64,000 bases of DNA, from positions 62,001 through 126,000 of IMG/VR virus record IMGVR_UViG_3300036791_001907. One strand, written 5' to 3'. A program made the position numbers and the translations under genes. The notes under the pieces are model-generated. The model saw only the letters and a list, made by a program, of their open reading frames with translations. It ran no database searches and was not told where the DNA came from. This DNA is from a virus. Positions 2,284 through 61,500 of this stretch are shown piece after piece (within the stretch, counting starts at the first letter, position 1; the number at the start of each line of letters is the position of its first letter).

Positions 2284-2316
2284 ACCGACGGTCGGCGGTA
2301 TATCCGGTGGTGACGG
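2284..2316 (+). repeat. Pseudoknot element, copy 3
   Basis: Helix 1 ACCG/CGGT (2284-2287, 2296-2299). Helix 2 GTCGG/CCGGT (2291-2295, 2304-2308) holds with two G-U wobbles. First loop ACG rather than ATG, second loop ATAT, tail GGTGACGG. It starts 8 nt after the stop of the 1742 gene and lacks the A-rich flank. Confidence 0.75.
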
Positions 2317-2678
2317 GAAGGCGGCAGAGATCCGGCTTCGTTCGCTCCGGCGTGCGACGCTGGGGCCCGGCAGCCAAGGACCGGCGTGGCAAGCCGCGTT
2401 CTGGCTTGCAGCGTCTAGGTTCGGCCGCAGCGGAGGGCCAGGCCGGGGTAGTGTTCGGCTCCGCAGGTCGAGGCTTGTCCCGGTTCGGCAGCTCGGGTGC
2501 GTCGTGCTGCGAATAGGCATCGTGAGGCTGGCTTCGGCAGCGTCAGGCAGCGGCGGAGGGCCTTGTCCGGGTGTGGCATTCGGCGGCTTGGCGTGCCCAG
2601 GTGAGCCGAGGCCGTACAGGTTAGGCGGGATGCGCCCGGCACTGCAATGGCCTGCTCCGGCTGGCCGGGCAGTAAAGA

Positions 2679-2711
2679 ACCGACGGCCAGCGGTATATCT
2701 GGCGGTGACGG
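2679..2711 (+). repeat. Pseudoknot element, copy 4
   Basis: Helix 1 ACCG/CGGT, helix 2 GCCAG/CTGGC (2686-2690, 2699-2703), loops ACG and ATAT, tail GGTGACGG. The upstream flank is GCAGTAAAGA. Confidence 0.8.
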
Positions 2712-3050
2712 CAGTTCAGGAGCGGATGGGACGGCCCAGGCAGGGCTTGTTACGGCCCGCCGGGACTCGTTTCGGCGCCGCCGTATTGGTCTGGCTTCAC
2801 ATGCCGTGGCGACGTGAGCCGCGGTCAGCACAGGAGCGGCAGCGATGGTTCGTCTAGTCTACACAAGGCAGGCCCAGGCAGCCGGAGGTATGCCCAGCAG
2901 GGCCATGGCCGTACAGGACAGCAGGGGTAGGTAAAGCACGGGCAAGCCGTGCCGGGTCCCGGCAGCGAAGCCGAGTTCCGGTGTGGTGCGCCGTGGTGGC
3001 GTCCGTCACGGCGGGCCATGTCGCGGCTAGTCAAGTCGCGGCAGCAAAAA

Positions 3051-3083
3051 ACCTATGGCCACAGGTATATGTGGTGGTGATGG
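3051..3083 (+). repeat. Pseudoknot element, copy 5
   Basis: Helix 1 has changed on both sides to ACCT/AGGT (3051-3054, 3063-3066), a compensatory swap relative to ACCG/CGGT. Helix 2 GCCAC/GTGGT (3058-3062, 3071-3075) has one terminal G-U. Tail GGTGATGG, upstream flank GCAGCAAAAA. Confidence 0.8.
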
Positions 3084-3420
3084 CAGGCAGGGCAAGCCCT
3101 GTCACGTCGCGGTGCGGCATGTCCCGGCAGCGTAGGCTTGGTCAGATACGCGAAGTCCTGGTACGCCGCGGCCGGCACAGGTTAGCTGCGGCCAGGCAGC
3201 ATAGGCTCGTCCCAGCAAAGGCAGGTCGCGACAGGGCTGGCCGCGGTTCGGCAGCATTGGCTGGGAAAGCCCAGCCCAGGTTCGCCGCGCCACGCAGGGC
3301 TTCGGCGGGGCGGGGCAGTCAAGGATCGGCATGGCGTGTCTAGCCACGGTCCGTCATGGCGAGTCGTGCTGCGGCAGCGGCGGAGAGCCGAGCCGTGGTG
3401 GCAACTGGTGGGCCAAGCTA

Positions 3421-3500
3421 CGTTGTGGCGACGCCGGATAGGTATGGCATGCCCCGGACTGCCATGGCGAGTCATGGCGGGCCATGGCGAGCCGTGGCCG
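3421..3500 (+). repeat. Quasi-tandem 10-bp repeat within the spacer
   Basis: From 3461 to 3500 four 10-mers stand head to tail: GCCATGGCGA, GTCATGGCGG, GCCATGGCGA, GCCGTGGCCG. The same phase continues upstream in more diverged form (GGTATGGCAT at 3441, ACGCCGGATA at 3431, CGTTGTGGCG at 3421). It is the clearest view of the short-word texture that fills the spacers between pseudoknots. Confidence 0.6.
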
Positions 3501-3634
3501 CGAAGGAGTGGCCGCCCGGCGTTCGTCCGGCGTTGGTTGGTCTAGGTAGGGACGCGTCAGCCGGGGCAGTCATGGTTTGGCGCGGCTTGCCTGGTCGTGC
3601 CACGGCAAGCGATGCCAGGGATGGGCAGCAAAAA

Positions 3635-3667
3635 ACCCATGGTCACGGGTATATGTGACGGTGATGG
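3635..3667 (+). repeat. Pseudoknot element, copy 6
   Basis: Helix 1 ACCC/GGGT (3635-3638, 3647-3650), helix 2 GTCAC/GTGAC (3642-3646, 3655-3659). Both helices differ from copy 2 by paired changes and both are fully Watson-Crick. Tail GGTGATGG, upstream flank GCAGCAAAAA. Confidence 0.82.
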
Positions 3668-3936
3668 TGCGGCAGCTCGGCCCTGCCATGATGGGGCATG
3701 TCGAGCCGCGGCCAGCAGCGCAATGGTAGCGCTGGTGTTCCCAAGCTTGGCCTGGGTAAGTCAAGCGCTGGCCAGCCGGGGCAGCGAAGGTGAGGCTAGA
3801 TCTATCGAGCCTAGCGCTGTCATGTGCTGGTGAGCCGGGGTGAGCCTCGGTACGGTATCGCCGCTCTGGCGGCGTTAGTCGTGACATCGAAAGCTGTGGT
3901 ATGCCGAGTCGAGGTCAGACAGCAGAGGAGGTGTGA

Positions 3937-4152
3937 ATGATCGGACCCAAGTGCGAGTGCCGAAAGCCGACCTTTCCGTCTGAAGACGAACAGTCCTGGC
4001 TGTGCATGAACCCGGAGTGTGCGGGCTTCCAGCAGGTCTACTGCGAGTTGACGCCGGCAGACCTGGCGCTCATCGCCAAGCTGAAGGCGCTGGCCAATGG
4101 CCACTGGCAGCGTGTTGCAAAAACCCGAAAACTCCGCGGTACCAGGAAGTGA
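3937..4152 (+). CDS. Small zinc-ribbon protein
   Basis: 71 residues from the ATG at 3937, preceded by a strong GAGGAGG. Cysteines at CECRK near the N-terminus and CMNPEC about 15 residues later form a compact zinc-binding module; the rest is a basic helix (HWQRVAKTRKLRGTRK). It is an island of normal coding sequence between pseudoknot copies 6 and 7. No family assigned; DNA or RNA binding is plausible from the basic tail. Confidence 0.75.
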   Translation: MIGPKCECRKPTFPSEDEQSWLCMNPECAGFQQVYCELTPADLALIAKLKALANGHWQRVAKTRKLRGTRK

Positions 4153-4232
4153 TGAACGGTTCGGCAGCCGCGGTGAGGTGCGACCGGGTTCGTCCAGCGA
4201 TGGCGGACCTTGGTGTGGCATCACAGCAGTAA

Positions 4233-4265
4233 ACCTATGGCCACAGGTATAAGTGGCGGTGATGG
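4233..4265 (+). repeat. Pseudoknot element, copy 7
   Basis: Helix 1 ACCT/AGGT (4233-4236, 4245-4248), helix 2 GCCAC/GTGGC (4240-4244, 4253-4257). The second loop is ATAA, the only copy not ATAT. Tail GGTGATGG, upstream flank GCAGTAA. Confidence 0.8.
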
Positions 4266-4736
4266 AATGGCAGCATCGGACGGGCTCGGACGGGCCATGA
4301 CGGGCCGGGTTAGCTGTGCCGCGTCAAGGCAGTACTGGCTAGGTTTTTCAGGGCATGCTCTGGTGCGCCTGGTCACGGCCGTCTAGGTGAGGAGTCGCGT
4401 GCAGCGGCTTGCCACGGCCAGTTCTGTCGAGGCAAGCCGAGGCCGTCAAGGTGCGGCCAGGCAAGTAATGCAGGGATCGGGCTGGCTATGGTCCGGCCGC
4501 AATGGCAAGGTTAGTTGCGGCTGGTACCGGCGGGGCGAGCCCTGCTGTGGTATGGCCGTAACGGTAGTCCGCGGAGCGCCATGGACGGCCCCGCTCAGGC
4601 TGGCCAAGGTCGGCCGAGGCAGTCTTGCAAGGGATCGTCCAGCCTGGTTGTGCCATGGCCAGGCAGGGGAGCAGAGGTGTGTTCTGGCACCCTGTGATCT
4701 GGCCGGCCAAGTCACGGCAAGGCCGGGCAGCAGTAA

Positions 4737-4769
4737 ACCCATGGTCGCGGGTATATGCGACGGTGATGG
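4737..4769 (+). repeat. Pseudoknot element, copy 8
   Basis: Helix 1 ACCC/GGGT (4737-4740, 4749-4752), helix 2 GTCGC/GCGAC (4744-4748, 4757-4761), all Watson-Crick. Tail GGTGATGG, upstream flank GCAGTAA. Confidence 0.82.
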
Positions 4770-5132
4770 AAGGGCAGCCGTGGACAGCAGGGTTATGATG
4801 CGCTGCGCAAGGGCTGGTCCTGGCAGGCCAAGGATCGGCAGGAGAGCACAGGTCCGGTCTGCATAGTAGTGGCGAGACCTACCATGTCGAGCCGGGTTTC
4901 GGCAGCAATGCGAAGGTGAGCCTTGCCGGGGCGGCCGTAGCTGTGGCAGTGTAGTCGAGTCGTGGCAAGCCTAGTCCGGCATAGTTGGGCTCTGGTCCGG
5001 TCCGGCAGCAGAAGTGTGTCTTGGTCCGCCGCGTCGCGACGCGGTGGGATCCGGCAGTAATGGTGCGGCTAGTCATGGCGCCGCGAGCCGCGCTGTGTCA
5101 TGTCATGATCTGGCTAGGCCGGACAGCAAAAA

Positions 5133-5165
5133 ACCGATGGCCAGCGGTATATCTGGTGGTGACGG
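5133..5165 (+). repeat. Pseudoknot element, copy 9
   Basis: Helix 1 ACCG/CGGT, helix 2 GCCAG/CTGGT (5140-5144, 5153-5157) with a terminal G-U. Tail GGTGACGG, upstream flank ACAGCAAAAA. Confidence 0.8.
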
Positions 5166-5484
5166 GAAGCATCGGCAGCGACGGCAAGCCGTGGTGTGGT
5201 ATGCCCGGCTCCGCCAAGCTACGGCAGCAGTGGGCAGGCTGGGCAGGTTTTGCTCCGTCGTGTCGAGTGTTGGTAAGGCAGCCATGGTGTGGCCCGGCGC
5301 GTCATGTCGCGTCGTCCTTTGCGCCGGCATGGCGTGGCCGCTGTGGCAAGACACCCTTAGTCATGATGGGGCCGGGCGGGCACCTGTTTGCTGCGCCGAG
5401 TCGTGGCAGTGACGCAGTGGTGTGTTGTGCCCCGGCCTGCCCCGGCGAGTCCTGTCATCGTGGGCAGCGCTGAGGCAGCAAAAA

Positions 5485-5517
5485 ACCCATGGCCACGGGT
5501 ATATGTGGCGGTGATGG
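5485..5517 (+). repeat. Pseudoknot element, copy 10
   Basis: Helix 1 ACCC/GGGT (5485-5488, 5497-5500), helix 2 GCCAC/GTGGC (5492-5496, 5505-5509). Tail GGTGATGG, upstream flank GCAGCAAAAA. Last copy before the hairpin that closes the tract. Confidence 0.82.
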
Positions 5518-5838
5518 ACAGCCCCGCGCTGGCCGGCTTTGGTCAGCCATGCAGAGCTGCGGCAGCAGAGGTGAGGCGTGACCAGCACAGCCGGGGTACG
5601 GTTCGCTGTGCCCTGGTTAGGCAGGTGGGTCATGGTTCGCGATGGCGCGTTGAGCCTTGCCATGGTGAGGCAGCAATGGATCGGCGGGCTGTGGCACGGC
5701 AAGCCTGGGTCGGATCCGCTGCGGCAGCGGAGGTGCGGAACGCCATGGACCGGCAGGGTGGGCCAGGGTGGGCCGAGCCACGGCAGCACGGGTGTGCCGT
5801 GTCCGGCCTAGTCAAGGACGGATGAGCCGCGCACTGTG

Positions 5839-5872
5839 GAAGGGGGCGTGGTCTTCGGGCCACGCCCCCTCC
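5839..5872. terminator. Strong hairpin, probable terminator between convergent units
   Basis: AGGGGGCGTGG (5841-5851) pairs with CCACGCCCCCT (5860-5870), and the loop closes as a C-UUCG-G tetraloop, giving about 13 bp. It separates the plus-strand pseudoknot tract from the minus-strand genes at 5873-7251 and could stop transcription both ways. Neither side has a long T-run, so efficiency is uncertain. Confidence 0.7.
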
Positions 5873-6079
5873 TTATACCTTCACGCCGGCGAGCAACTCG
5901 AAGACCCCGAATGCCTTACACAAAAAGATGATCAGAACCAGGGCCAGCAGACCATAAGCGAGGTGAATACACCACCGCGGGTAAGCCAGCCTCGATCCCA
6001 GCTGCTGATCGGCGAAGGCGACCAGCGCGCAGGCGATGATGAACGCCAGAACGGCCAGCAAAACGCCGAGCAAACTCAC
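5873..6079 (-). CDS. Small two-helix membrane protein
   Basis: 68 residues. Two hydrophobic segments (LLGVLLAVLAFIIACALVAF and YGLLALVLIIFLCKAFGVFEL) flank a short polar loop (ADQQLGSRLAYPR). The start overlaps the stop of the 6076-7251 gene, so the two are co-translated. Size and topology would fit a class II holin, but there is no lysin next to it, so this is only a possibility. Confidence 0.7.
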   Translation of the reverse strand: MSLLGVLLAVLAFIIACALVAFADQQLGSRLAYPRWCIHLAYGLLALVLIIFLCKAFGVFELLAGVKV

Positions 6080-16147: not shown

Positions 16148-19870
<3,723 letters not shown>

Positions 19871-23313: not shown

Positions 23314-23681
23314 TGTGATCCGATGGCCACCGGAATATGTGGCGGTGACGGCAGCGCAGGAGAGGACAGCCGTGGCAAGCCGAGCCCGCTCGCGGCAGGG
23401 CAGGCCAAGGCGGGCCTTGGCAGCAAAGGCGGGGCGTGGACGGACGCGTTATGCTAGGATGAGCCTCGCGCAGGCAGGACCGCCGAGGATGGTTGAGGCT
23501 TGATCTATCAGGGCACGCCCAGCCAAGTCAGGGCAGGACGCCAGTCGTACTGGTCGGGACCCTACCGCCGGACCCGGCGGTGGGCCTGACACCCGGGGAT
23601 CCTGGGACACCTCTTGCCCCCAGGATCCCAGGTGGGCCGGTCTCTGGAACGAGACGTCGTTCCGGGGGCCGGTCCGTTTTC
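23314..23681 (+). other. Intergenic region with pseudoknot copy 11 and several hairpins
   Basis: Starts with the isolated eleventh pseudoknot, continues with the same GC-rich short-word text as the 1-5.8 kb tract, includes an orphan GCTAGGATG (23453-23461), and ends with three strong hairpins: ACCGCCG/CGGCGGT near 23572, GGGATCCTGGG/CCCAGGATCCC near 23595-23634, and GGAACGA/TCGTTCC near 23646-23663, followed by TTTTCTT. The last ones are well placed as terminators between convergent genes. No coding potential is seen. Confidence 0.55.
23319..23351 (+). repeat. Pseudoknot element, copy 11 (isolated)
   Basis: Helix 1 is TCCG/CGGA (23319-23322, 23331-23334): the first base pair is T-A instead of A-T, changed on both sides. 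Helix 2 GCCAC/GTGGC (23326-23330, 23339-23343), loops ATG and ATAT, tail GGTGACGG. It lies 18 kb from the other copies, 5 nt after a stop codon. Confidence 0.82.
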
Positions 23682-24635
23682 TTACGGGTCAAGCCACCCC
23701 CCTTCACTGCCGAAGGGATCGCGGGCGTGCATCAGTCCCAGGGCCAGCAGCTGATCGGGTCCGGTATAGCAGGTCGAATAGTCCGGGTGGAAGAAGGATC
23801 GGCTCGGAGTCTGCTCGAGCATCAGTTCCATGGAGCGGTATTCCCGGGCGTCGCCGAAGTGCTCGCCGCGGATGATCTCCTCCCGCGCCCGCGGCACCGC
23901 GTCATCAAAATGTTTGCAATGTAGGAGCGCTCCCCGCATTGGCGCCAACGTCACCGGGACCTTCAGGCCGTGCGCGCCGCAGTCGAACGCCTGGCCCGGC
24001 TGCCAGCGCACCAGCGGCAGCTTGCTGCCGGCCGGCGCGTCGCGGCCGAGCCCATCGAAGACGCGGGTCCGCGCGCCCCCCAGGATCATGCGGTGCGGAA
24101 ACGCCGGGATCGTGATCCAGCGATAGTGCTTGCGGTCGAAGAAGGGGGTTGCGGACAGGAACGGTTCGCCGCGAACATAGCCCACGCTGCCGAACGGCCG
24201 GTCGGAATAGCAGTCAGTGAGCACACAGAAGAGCGCACGGGCCTGGGCGCGGTCGAGTTCCCCGGTCAGGTCCTGGATCGGCTTGCCGGCGCTGCCGGGC
24301 CAGACCAGCAGCTCGTCGGCATCGGCGATCAAGACCCAGCATTCCGGACAGTGTGTGTTCAGGACCGGGTTGACCCAGTCCATGCCGAAGTGGGCGGGCC
24401 CGTAGCGGTCTTGGGTCTCGAACAGGCTGACGTCAGGCCGGTCCTCGAGAAACTCGTGGGTGCCGTCGCTGGAGCCATTGTCGATCAGCAGGAACCGATC
24501 GAACCCGAGCGCCCGATAATACATCAGGAAAAAGGGGAGGCGCAAGGTCTCGTTCCGGACCACGGAAACGACGACGTGATCGGTCGGCCGGATATCATCC
24601 GGCGGCCGTGTGGACGCGGCAAGTGTAACCGGCAT
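23682..24635 (-). CDS. Glycosyltransferase, GT-A fold (Glyco_tranf_2_4-like)
   Basis: 317 residues from the ATG at 24635 with GGGAGG upstream on the minus strand. N-terminal pattern HVVVSVVRNETLRLPFFLMYY, then FLLIDNGSSDGT, and WVLIADADELLVW with the metal-binding DADE. This is the arrangement of family-2-like transferases that use nucleotide sugars. Middle residues FDRKHYRWITIPAFPHRM and a His-rich GALLHCKHF complete the domain. It is alone on the minus strand here; acceptor unknown. It could glycosylate a virion protein, a cell-surface glycan or DNA. Confidence 0.8.
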   Translation of the reverse strand: MPVTLAASTRPPDDIRPTDHVVVSVVRNETLRLPFFLMYYRALGFDRFLLIDNGSSDGTHEFLEDRPDVSLFETQDRYGPAHFGMDWVNPVLNTHCPECWVLIADADELLVWPGSAGKPIQDLTGELDRAQARALFCVLTDCYSDRPFGSVGYVRGEPFLSATPFFDRKHYRWITIPAFPHRMILGGARTRVFDGLGRDAPAGSKLPLVRWQPGQAFDCGAHGLKVPVTLAPMRGALLHCKHFDDAVPRAREEIIRGEHFGDAREYRSMELMLEQTPSRSFFHPDYSTCYTGPDQLLALGLMHARDPFGSEGGWLDP

Positions 24636-59946: not shown

Positions 59947-61500
59947 ATGACCAGGAAGGGGTTCCGGAAGGGACCCAGCAAGGGTGCCGCGGCGAGTAAC
60001 GGTCAACCCACAGCGAAACCGGCGGCGAAACCTCGTACCAGGAAAGCAGCGGGCGGCAAGCCCAAGTTCAAGCCGCCGCCGAAGGTCAAGGCCGGTGACG
60101 CGGCCCGCGCCGGTTTGAAGATCTATCACGAGAGCGTCAAGGAGCTCGGCCACGAGGTGGCCTCGGACGCGGCCTGGACAGCACAGGTCGCGGTGCACCA
60201 GCGGGATAACGACCGCAAGGATCTGATCGTGGCGGGCGAGGCCCGCAAGCTGGTGGTGGGGATCCCGCTGCCCAGCCTGGCGCTCATGCACCTGTTCCAG
60301 TCGAACGTGCTGCCGGTGGGCCGGATCTACCAGATCACCGGCGAGGAGGGCTCCTCCAAGTCCAGCTTTCTTGCGGAGATGATGCGCTGGGTGCTGATCT
60401 ACTCCGGCTACGCGATGGTCTTCGAGGTCGAGGGCAAGGACATCGCCGAGCTGCGCGAGGCGATCTGGGAGTACAACTCCACCTGGCTCAATGTCCGCAG
60501 CCTGATCGATCCCTGCGACTCGCTGAACCACTGGATGCGGAACCTGGGCAAGGAGATCGGCGAGGTCACTCGCTACAACGAGGGCTACGGCGGCTCACCC
60601 GGTATTGGCTGGCGCAACCCCTACATCTTCGGGGTCGACGCCTTCACGTCGGCGGGGGCCGACGAGACGATCGTCAAGATCGGCAAGGAGGGCGCTCCGG
60701 GCCGGAGCCACCCGATCGAGGCCAACCTGATCGCCCAGTACAGCCGCACCTGGACCGACAAGCTCCGCGGCACCTCGATCATCGTTGCCGGCACCAACCA
60801 CCTGAAGCCCAAGCGGGATGACCAGGGCAATGAGATCTCGCACTCGCCGGGCGGCAAGGCGCTGAAGTTCATGGAGTCGGTCGAGATCCAGATGCGGCGG
60901 CTGGGCAAGTACAAGGAGGCCGCCAAGTCCGGGGTCTGGCTCTGGATCGAGACGATGAAGAGTTCGATCGGCGAGCGGCTGAAGTCGGTGCGGGTCGCCA
61001 TGGTCTGGGACTGGCGGTATCACGACGATGTCGCCGACTGGCGGCAGCATGCCTACTTCGACTGGCACACGGCGACCCTGGATACGCTGCTCCAGTACGA
61101 GGCCGACAAGGACTCGAAGAAGACCTGGAACGCGATCAACGACATCGTCGATATCAACGCGGTGGCGCAGGGGCGCTACTGGTCTTACCGGCTGGGGATC
61201 CCTAAAGAAAAGCCGGTGCGGCGTCATGAATTCGGCCGGGCCCTGGACTACGATCGCGGGGTTTGCCGCGAGCTGTTCCCGATCCTGGGTATCACCCGGC
61301 GGCCGGTGTTCCGGCCGGGCGAACGGCTCGTGGACACCATCGTGATGGCCTCGGCGAAGACCGATGCCGAGCTGCCCGACTACTATGCCGAGTACGACGC
61401 GAACCTGAATGACTTCGCCGATGTCACGGAGAACCTGCATCGGGGCCGGACGGCGCGGCCCAAGGACGCGCCGGTCGCGGAGGAAGACGACGACGCATGA
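59947..61500 (+). CDS. RecA/UvsX-like recombinase
   Basis: 517 residues from ATG 59947 (GGGGAGG upstream). A basic disordered N-terminus (about 50 residues of Lys/Pro/Ala) precedes the core. Walker A ITGEEGSSKSSFLAE near residue 130, Walker B-like IFGVDAFTSAGAD, GTSIIVAGTNHLKPK, and HSPGGKALKFMESVEIQMRR, the counterpart of the L2-adjacent GGxALKF of RecA. Acidic C-terminus (VAEEDDDA). It should coat ssDNA and pair homologous strands for recombination-dependent replication. Its stop overlaps the next start as ATGA. Confidence 0.85.
   Translation: MTRKGFRKGPSKGAAASNGQPTAKPAAKPRTRKAAGGKPKFKPPPKVKAGDAARAGLKIYHESVKELGHEVASDAAWTAQVAVHQRDNDRKDLIVAGEARKLVVGIPLPSLALMHLFQSNVLPVGRIYQITGEEGSSKSSFLAEMMRWVLIYSGYAMVFEVEGKDIAELREAIWEYNSTWLNVRSLIDPCDSLNHWMRNLGKEIGEVTRYNEGYGGSPGIGWRNPYIFGVDAFTSAGADETIVKIGKEGAPGRSHPIEANLIAQYSRTWTDKLRGTSIIVAGTNHLKPKRDDQGNEISHSPGGKALKFMESVEIQMRRLGKYKEAAKSGVWLWIETMKSSIGERLKSVRVAMVWDWRYHDDVADWRQHAYFDWHTATLDTLLQYEADKDSKKTWNAINDIVDINAVAQGRYWSYRLGIPKEKPVRRHEFGRALDYDRGVCRELFPILGITRRPVFRPGERLVDTIVMASAKTDAELPDYYAEYDANLNDFADVTENLHRGRTARPKDAPVAEEDDDA

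Follow-up and report, generated by a model that had tools for sequence, protein, structure and literature searches.

VIPR systems, described only in 2026, read DNA through a noncontiguous RNA-guided code that may predate CRISPR, and the preprint presents them as mostly phage-borne and composed of a single RAMP protein (Vipr), an accessory partner (Vap), and vrRNAs (PMC13142463). As set out there, a vrRNA consists of 9-16 YNNGG units in which NN reads DNA and one base per unit, mostly the wobble base, is skipped, and in the SUSP1 clade a pseudoknot tail comes after the repeats (PMC13142463). Units with a middle base other than G may fall under the "related consensus" of the preprint, which also depicts staggered and ribozyme-bearing arrays, and the layout described below may be among its figures (PMC13142463). 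As a reference we used the type II VIPR system of Escherichia phage SUSP1 (KT454805), and when we scanned its VIPR locus for H-type pseudoknots with 4-bp and 5-bp helices we obtained exactly four sites, which are the four vrRNA tails.

Vipr and the genes around it

The window, by which we mean the whole 64,000-nt stretch of viral DNA analyzed here, belongs to a 161-kb phage record and encodes on its plus strand a 303-aa RAMP/Cas7-like protein (vipr, 755-1666) that profile comparison and fold modeling identify as a VIPR effector homolog. Against SUSP1 Vipr the profile comparison gave a probability of 97.9 and an E value of 4.4e-13, with 34% identity across 67 columns, the G-loop among them. Its AlphaFold model (pLDDT 75.5) matched 39 PDB entries with E ≤ 0.001, exclusively chains of CRISPR RAMP complexes with Csm3/Cas7 as the best, and residues 19-211 aligned with Csm chains at Z 10.4. 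The locus encodes, at 755-1666, a Vipr with RAMP fold and G-loop, as expected of a VIPR system. The protein also carries a C-terminal extension of ∼90 residues, largely of low confidence in the model and absent from other homologs, which we counted against our preferred explanation.

In the vap position lies a plus-strand accessory gene (1742-2275; PLHD.F.W.D family, phrog_15946), whose product, marked by the PLHD.F.W.D motif, is the second conserved neighbor at VIPR-like loci. It is unrelated to SUSP1 Vap1 at the sequence level, which likewise weighs against our explanation, and a Foldseek search with it gave no fold match. The sole large neighbors of the arrays described below are vipr and this accessory gene. 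Elsewhere in the window, the large subunit of ribonucleotide reductase (1240 aa, 16148-19870) contains a stretch at residues ∼515-595 that matches HNH endonuclease families and suggests an intein or homing insertion.

Pseudoknots and the pentanucleotide text behind them

Twelve copies of an H-type pseudoknot occur in the record, all on the plus strand, with 11 of them inside the window and the twelfth at L007:1290 (record position 61290) upstream of it. A consensus-plus-pairing scan of both strands of the whole 161-kb record returned no additional copy, which corrects the first-pass annotation, where the copy at 23319 had been called the eleventh. The copies fall into four plus-strand arrays. 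Array A, just upstream of the window (L007 1290-1687), has one pseudoknot; array B-C (220-626) has pseudoknots at 220 and 529, each with guide text; and array D-K (2284-5838) has eight, starting at 2284, 2679, 3051, 3635, 4233, 4737, 5133, and 5485, again with guide text. A stable plus-strand hairpin at 5845-5875 (z -4.4), terminator-like although without a long T run, closes array D-K. The fourth array, cassette L, is headed by the copy at 23319-23351, which lies 17.8 kb downstream of the final copy in the main array, in agreement with the ∼18 kb first given.

Sequence reading and covariation define the copy at 23319 as TCCG-ATG-GCCAC-CGGA-ATAT-GTGGC-GGTGACGG, that is, S1 TCCG/CGGA, L1 ATG, S2 GCCAC/GTGGC, L3 ATAT, and the tail GGTGACGG. 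Its first pair is U-A, while the other copies have A-U (A at the start and T at the closing position), so the reversal reported from the initial reading is real. Our case for the pseudoknot is built on covariation; minimum free energy folding cannot show a pseudoknot. Over both helices of all 12 copies, every one of the 108 cells holds a standard pair, and five of the nine pairs vary on both sides. The covariation score was 0.51 (0.512), compared with 0.02-0.07 when the partner strand was slid by 1-3 columns. The A-U to U-A flip at 23319 belongs among these compensatory changes, which bears out the earlier suggestion that it is independent evidence for pairing. Since the helices tolerate the G-U pairs present among the copies, selection probably acts on RNA rather than on DNA. 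Rfam returned no match at the gathering score for the window and only chance-level matches for the cassette regions.

Behind every pseudoknot copy stands a degenerate pentanucleotide array, G-[G/C/T]-Y-N-N, in which G (0.94) is followed by G/C/T, then C/T, and then two free letters; the middle scaffold base in the window is G at 0.47, C at 0.32, and T at 0.16. The text has the layout of a vrRNA, tandem pentamers with hypervariable NN, with a middle base of G, C, or T and not G throughout. Autocorrelation of the text peaks at 5, 10, 15, and 20 nt (0.40, 0.39, 0.38, and 0.38, versus ∼0.25 elsewhere), and a five-state cyclic model reached a log-likelihood of -4142, compared with -4782 for a first-order Markov model and -4909 for base composition, a gain of ∼640 log units from the period-5 register over the Markov model. 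Of all steps, 8% lack one letter, and decoding identified most of these shorter, 4-nt steps as GGCA or GGCC. This 4-nt unit recurs every 8-15 pentamer units and divides the text into ∼63 segments in total. Two-class segmentation of the 161-kb record confined the text to the neighborhood of the 12 pseudoknots. TRAP-type RNA binding ((G/U)AG N2-3) was our first idea for the 5-nt register; it was dropped because TRAP (PF02081) is absent from the record and a 5-nt spacing is better accounted for by the RAMP protein.

The same text follows the remote copy. Pentamer guide text occupies the plus strand at 23352-23540 (23358-23537 in the two-class segmentation), and under a held-out model trained on the other blocks this stretch of ∼185 nt scored z = 10.4 against dinucleotide shuffles, whereas the stretches flanking it gave z -0.4 to 2.6. 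GGCA separators divide it into guides L0 (23354-23418), L1 (23423-23472), and L2 (from 23477), such that cassette L comprises one pseudoknot and three guide segments of 13, 10, and ∼11 units, among them the irregular units CTCGC and ATCAG. Strong plus-strand hairpins with TTTTCTT at 23566-23690 (z -4.5) form a terminator-like end. The element had been thought able to occur alone, which these ∼185 nt of text contradict. What had been described as short-word spacer text is indeed present behind it, although as an informative VIPR-type pentanucleotide guide array and not as loose spacer. The proposal that element and spacer belong together is upheld, with text behind 12 of 12 copies and nowhere else in the record, and both single copies, in cassette L and at L007 1290-1687, come with text. 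We are therefore highly confident that the "isolated pseudoknot" is a remote cassette with one pseudoknot, three guides, and its own terminator-like hairpin.

Two further features concern the main arrays. A 71-aa cysteine-containing ORF with an RBS-like sequence of its own interrupts guide block G at 3937-4152, and since it splits that block, genes can insert inside an array. Blocks C and J (508-622 and 5112-5226) have the pseudoknot and the start of the text in common, with 77% identity over 115 nt, which suggests that a block was duplicated and then diverged.

Guide code, targets, and relatives

If the guides of this phage read codons with the wobble base skipped, the NN letters should follow codon positions 1-2. 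The 715 NNs behaved as expected: sense codon positions 1-2 taken from the phage's own genes gave a log-likelihood of -1973 (r = 0.75), any phase gave -2050, and the five remaining phases ranged from -2064 to -2352. With an unphased model fitted to the bases of the NNs, the log-likelihood was equal (-1973) but the correlation lower (r = 0.46). When NNs were pooled from 19 other loci, sense positions 1-2 again ranked first.

One guide of the phage matches its own vipr gene. The NN letters of guide C1 (574-623, plus strand) match vipr codons 34-43 at a predicted site at 854-883, on the coding strand, with 18 of 20 letters in agreement and the one-base skip falling on the wobble position. By chance, 0.0005 such matches would be expected in the genome for C1 and ∼0.03 over 63 guides, and none of 40 shuffled-guide sets equaled it (best 0.0013). 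Chance is less likely still because the match falls in vipr and in phase, yet it is a single case. A match of guide B2 to the minus strand of vipr (20/28) is not wobble-phased and was taken as chance. Exact seeds of C1, L1, and L2 gave no hit or chance hits that did not extend, and the lack of a foreign target for them was counted against our explanation. For 118 guides from 19 other VIPR loci we found no convincing target within the sequence examined, which indicates that vipr self-targeting is not general.

To locate relatives by the text alone, we scanned IMG/VR for 20 G at five-base spacing. Along with unrelated repeats, this period-5 scan returned many loci in which GGCA interrupts GGCNN text; loci with other G-rich period-5 or period-15 repeats lacking GGCA have low uniqueness and were left uncounted. 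Among the loci fetched, at least 16 encode a protein homologous to 755-1666 (E 3e-27 to 9e-11), as a rule close to the text, and Vipr homologs lie beside such text in ∼20 other viral loci, most of them located through the text alone. Homologs also adjoin such text in four annotated phages, namely Gordonia phages Pipp and Ecliptus, Mycobacterium phage Donkeykong, and cyanophage Cy-LDV1. In Donkeykong, gp48 (L135 2444-2830), annotated as a hypothetical protein, overlies GGCNN/GGCA guide-type text (2455-2808) and is probably a misannotated non-coding RNA. Four loci (L104, L109, L118, and L127) have long GGCNN text with almost no GGCA unit and possibly represent another VIPR array layout.

In the GGCA-type relatives the middle base is G at ∼0.8-0.98. 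An H-type pseudoknot matched at 1 of 19 of their array starts and 0 of 19 ends, which is not above chance. When IMG/VR and GTDB genomes were scanned for the pseudoknot pattern, all hits were at chance level and lacked the pairing or the text. A Vipr protein search of IMG/VR, together with searches of other collections, revealed no close relative of the phage.

The pseudoknot as the probable head of a guide cassette

Taken together, these data make it very likely that the cassette at 23319 is a non-coding VIPR guide-RNA cassette carried by a large tailed phage, and likely that the pseudoknot forms its structural head at the 5′ end. Cassette L would be transcribed from the plus strand, probably by read-through from the gene that ends ∼5 nt upstream of 23319, to give an RNA with one pseudoknot, three pentamer guide segments, and a terminator-like hairpin end (23566-23690); this RNA may also be processed. 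Vipr subunits would coat the RNA, one for each G-S-Y-N-N unit, such that GSY is held and NN exposed, and successive NNs would read the DNA target with one base skipped each time, normally the wobble position of a codon. Once bound, Vipr would repress the targeted gene, which would belong to a rival phage, a satellite, or a prophage. As an anchor or boundary, the pseudoknot would define or protect each guide block at its 5′ end, as the counterpart of the SUSP1 3′ tail pseudoknot. Further observations count against this scheme, namely that no promoter was recognized, that one pseudoknot serves several guides with most guides not adjacent to one, that the SUSP1 pseudoknot is 3′ of its guide, and that G fills the middle scaffold position in just 0.47 of units.

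The main alternative is that each pseudoknot is the 3′ tail of the preceding guide, as in SUSP1, and that the copies first in their arrays, including the one at 23319, are guide-less leftovers or start markers. The H topology is indeed that of the SUSP1 3′ tails, and internal copies come after a guide end via the conserved GGCAGCAAAAAACC linker. However, all four arrays (A, B-C, D-K, and L) open with a pseudoknot 4-14 nt past a stop codon and end in guide text without one. Furthermore, for ∼16 of the 63 guide segments the array contains no pseudoknot farther downstream, whereas a single segment, the one after the inserted ORF, lacks a pseudoknot immediately upstream. Because arrays open with the pseudoknot and close with text, and guides without a downstream copy outnumber those without an upstream one, the pseudoknot is probably the 5′ head of the guide block in this phage, and we regard the 3′-tail assignment as unlikely.

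A somewhat less probable alternative is that duplication left behind, at 23319, a copy of an array unit that has since decayed and lost its function, which would fit its short length, its remote position, and its few irregular units. Against such decay, its pseudoknot is intact via a compensatory change, and the register is kept over ∼185 nt, with the terminator-like hairpin after it. It is very improbable that this is a DNA-level repeat array (a centromere, packaging, or nucleoid-protein site) with the pseudoknot as DNA inverted repeats or a minus-strand terminator, since, although some copies resemble a hairpin followed by a T run on the minus strand, helix 2, which crosses helix 1, covaries across the 12 copies with G-U pairs among them, the A-rich linker is missing from the four first-of-array copies, and the text keeps to one strand, accompanies a RAMP protein, and follows codon phase.

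As a 5′ head, the covarying pseudoknot lies on the opposite side of the guide from that in the characterized system, which makes this phage a natural test of the purpose of the pseudoknot. With ∼63 segments in one phage, it is also a guide-rich VIPR example, whose scaffold tolerates C or T at the middle position and whose guide blocks can sit well away from vipr. With the codon-phase composition of its NNs, the VIPR code can be tested without a database. More tentatively, the locus may represent a type absent from the layouts in the main text of the preprint, in which a 5′-handle pseudoknot heads multi-guide GSY blocks, mobile or copied cassettes settle far away, and vipr is autoregulated by one guide.

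Comparison with known systems places the locus as follows. Vipr has the RAMP backbone fold in common with class 1 CRISPR-Cas (Csm3/Cas7 backbone), where the guide is contiguous, whereas the guide here is gapped, with NN every 5 nt; the arrays contain no CRISPR repeats (identical direct repeats with contiguous spacers) and adjoin no cas genes. In the Cas12a crRNA, a structured 5′ handle stands ahead of the guide, as the pseudoknot does here. The GGCA-punctuated loci (Pipp, Ecliptus, Donkeykong, Cy-LDV1, and IMG/VR L093, L098, and L101) have the same GGCA boundary, similar segment lengths, and the same Vipr and PLHD accessory families, but they differ in having a GGY rather than a GSY scaffold and no above-chance H-type pseudoknot at array starts or ends. 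With SUSP1, the phage has in common a Vipr homolog with a G-loop, a pentamer guide RNA with free, codon-phased NN, and an H-type pseudoknot with 4-bp and 5-bp helices beside the guide. It differs from SUSP1, where the pseudoknot is 3′ of the guide and four guides have a GGY scaffold, in that the pseudoknot is 5′ of the guides, ∼63 guides have a GSY scaffold, several GGCA-separated guides go with each pseudoknot, the accessory protein is unrelated, and one cassette lies 18 kb from the main array.
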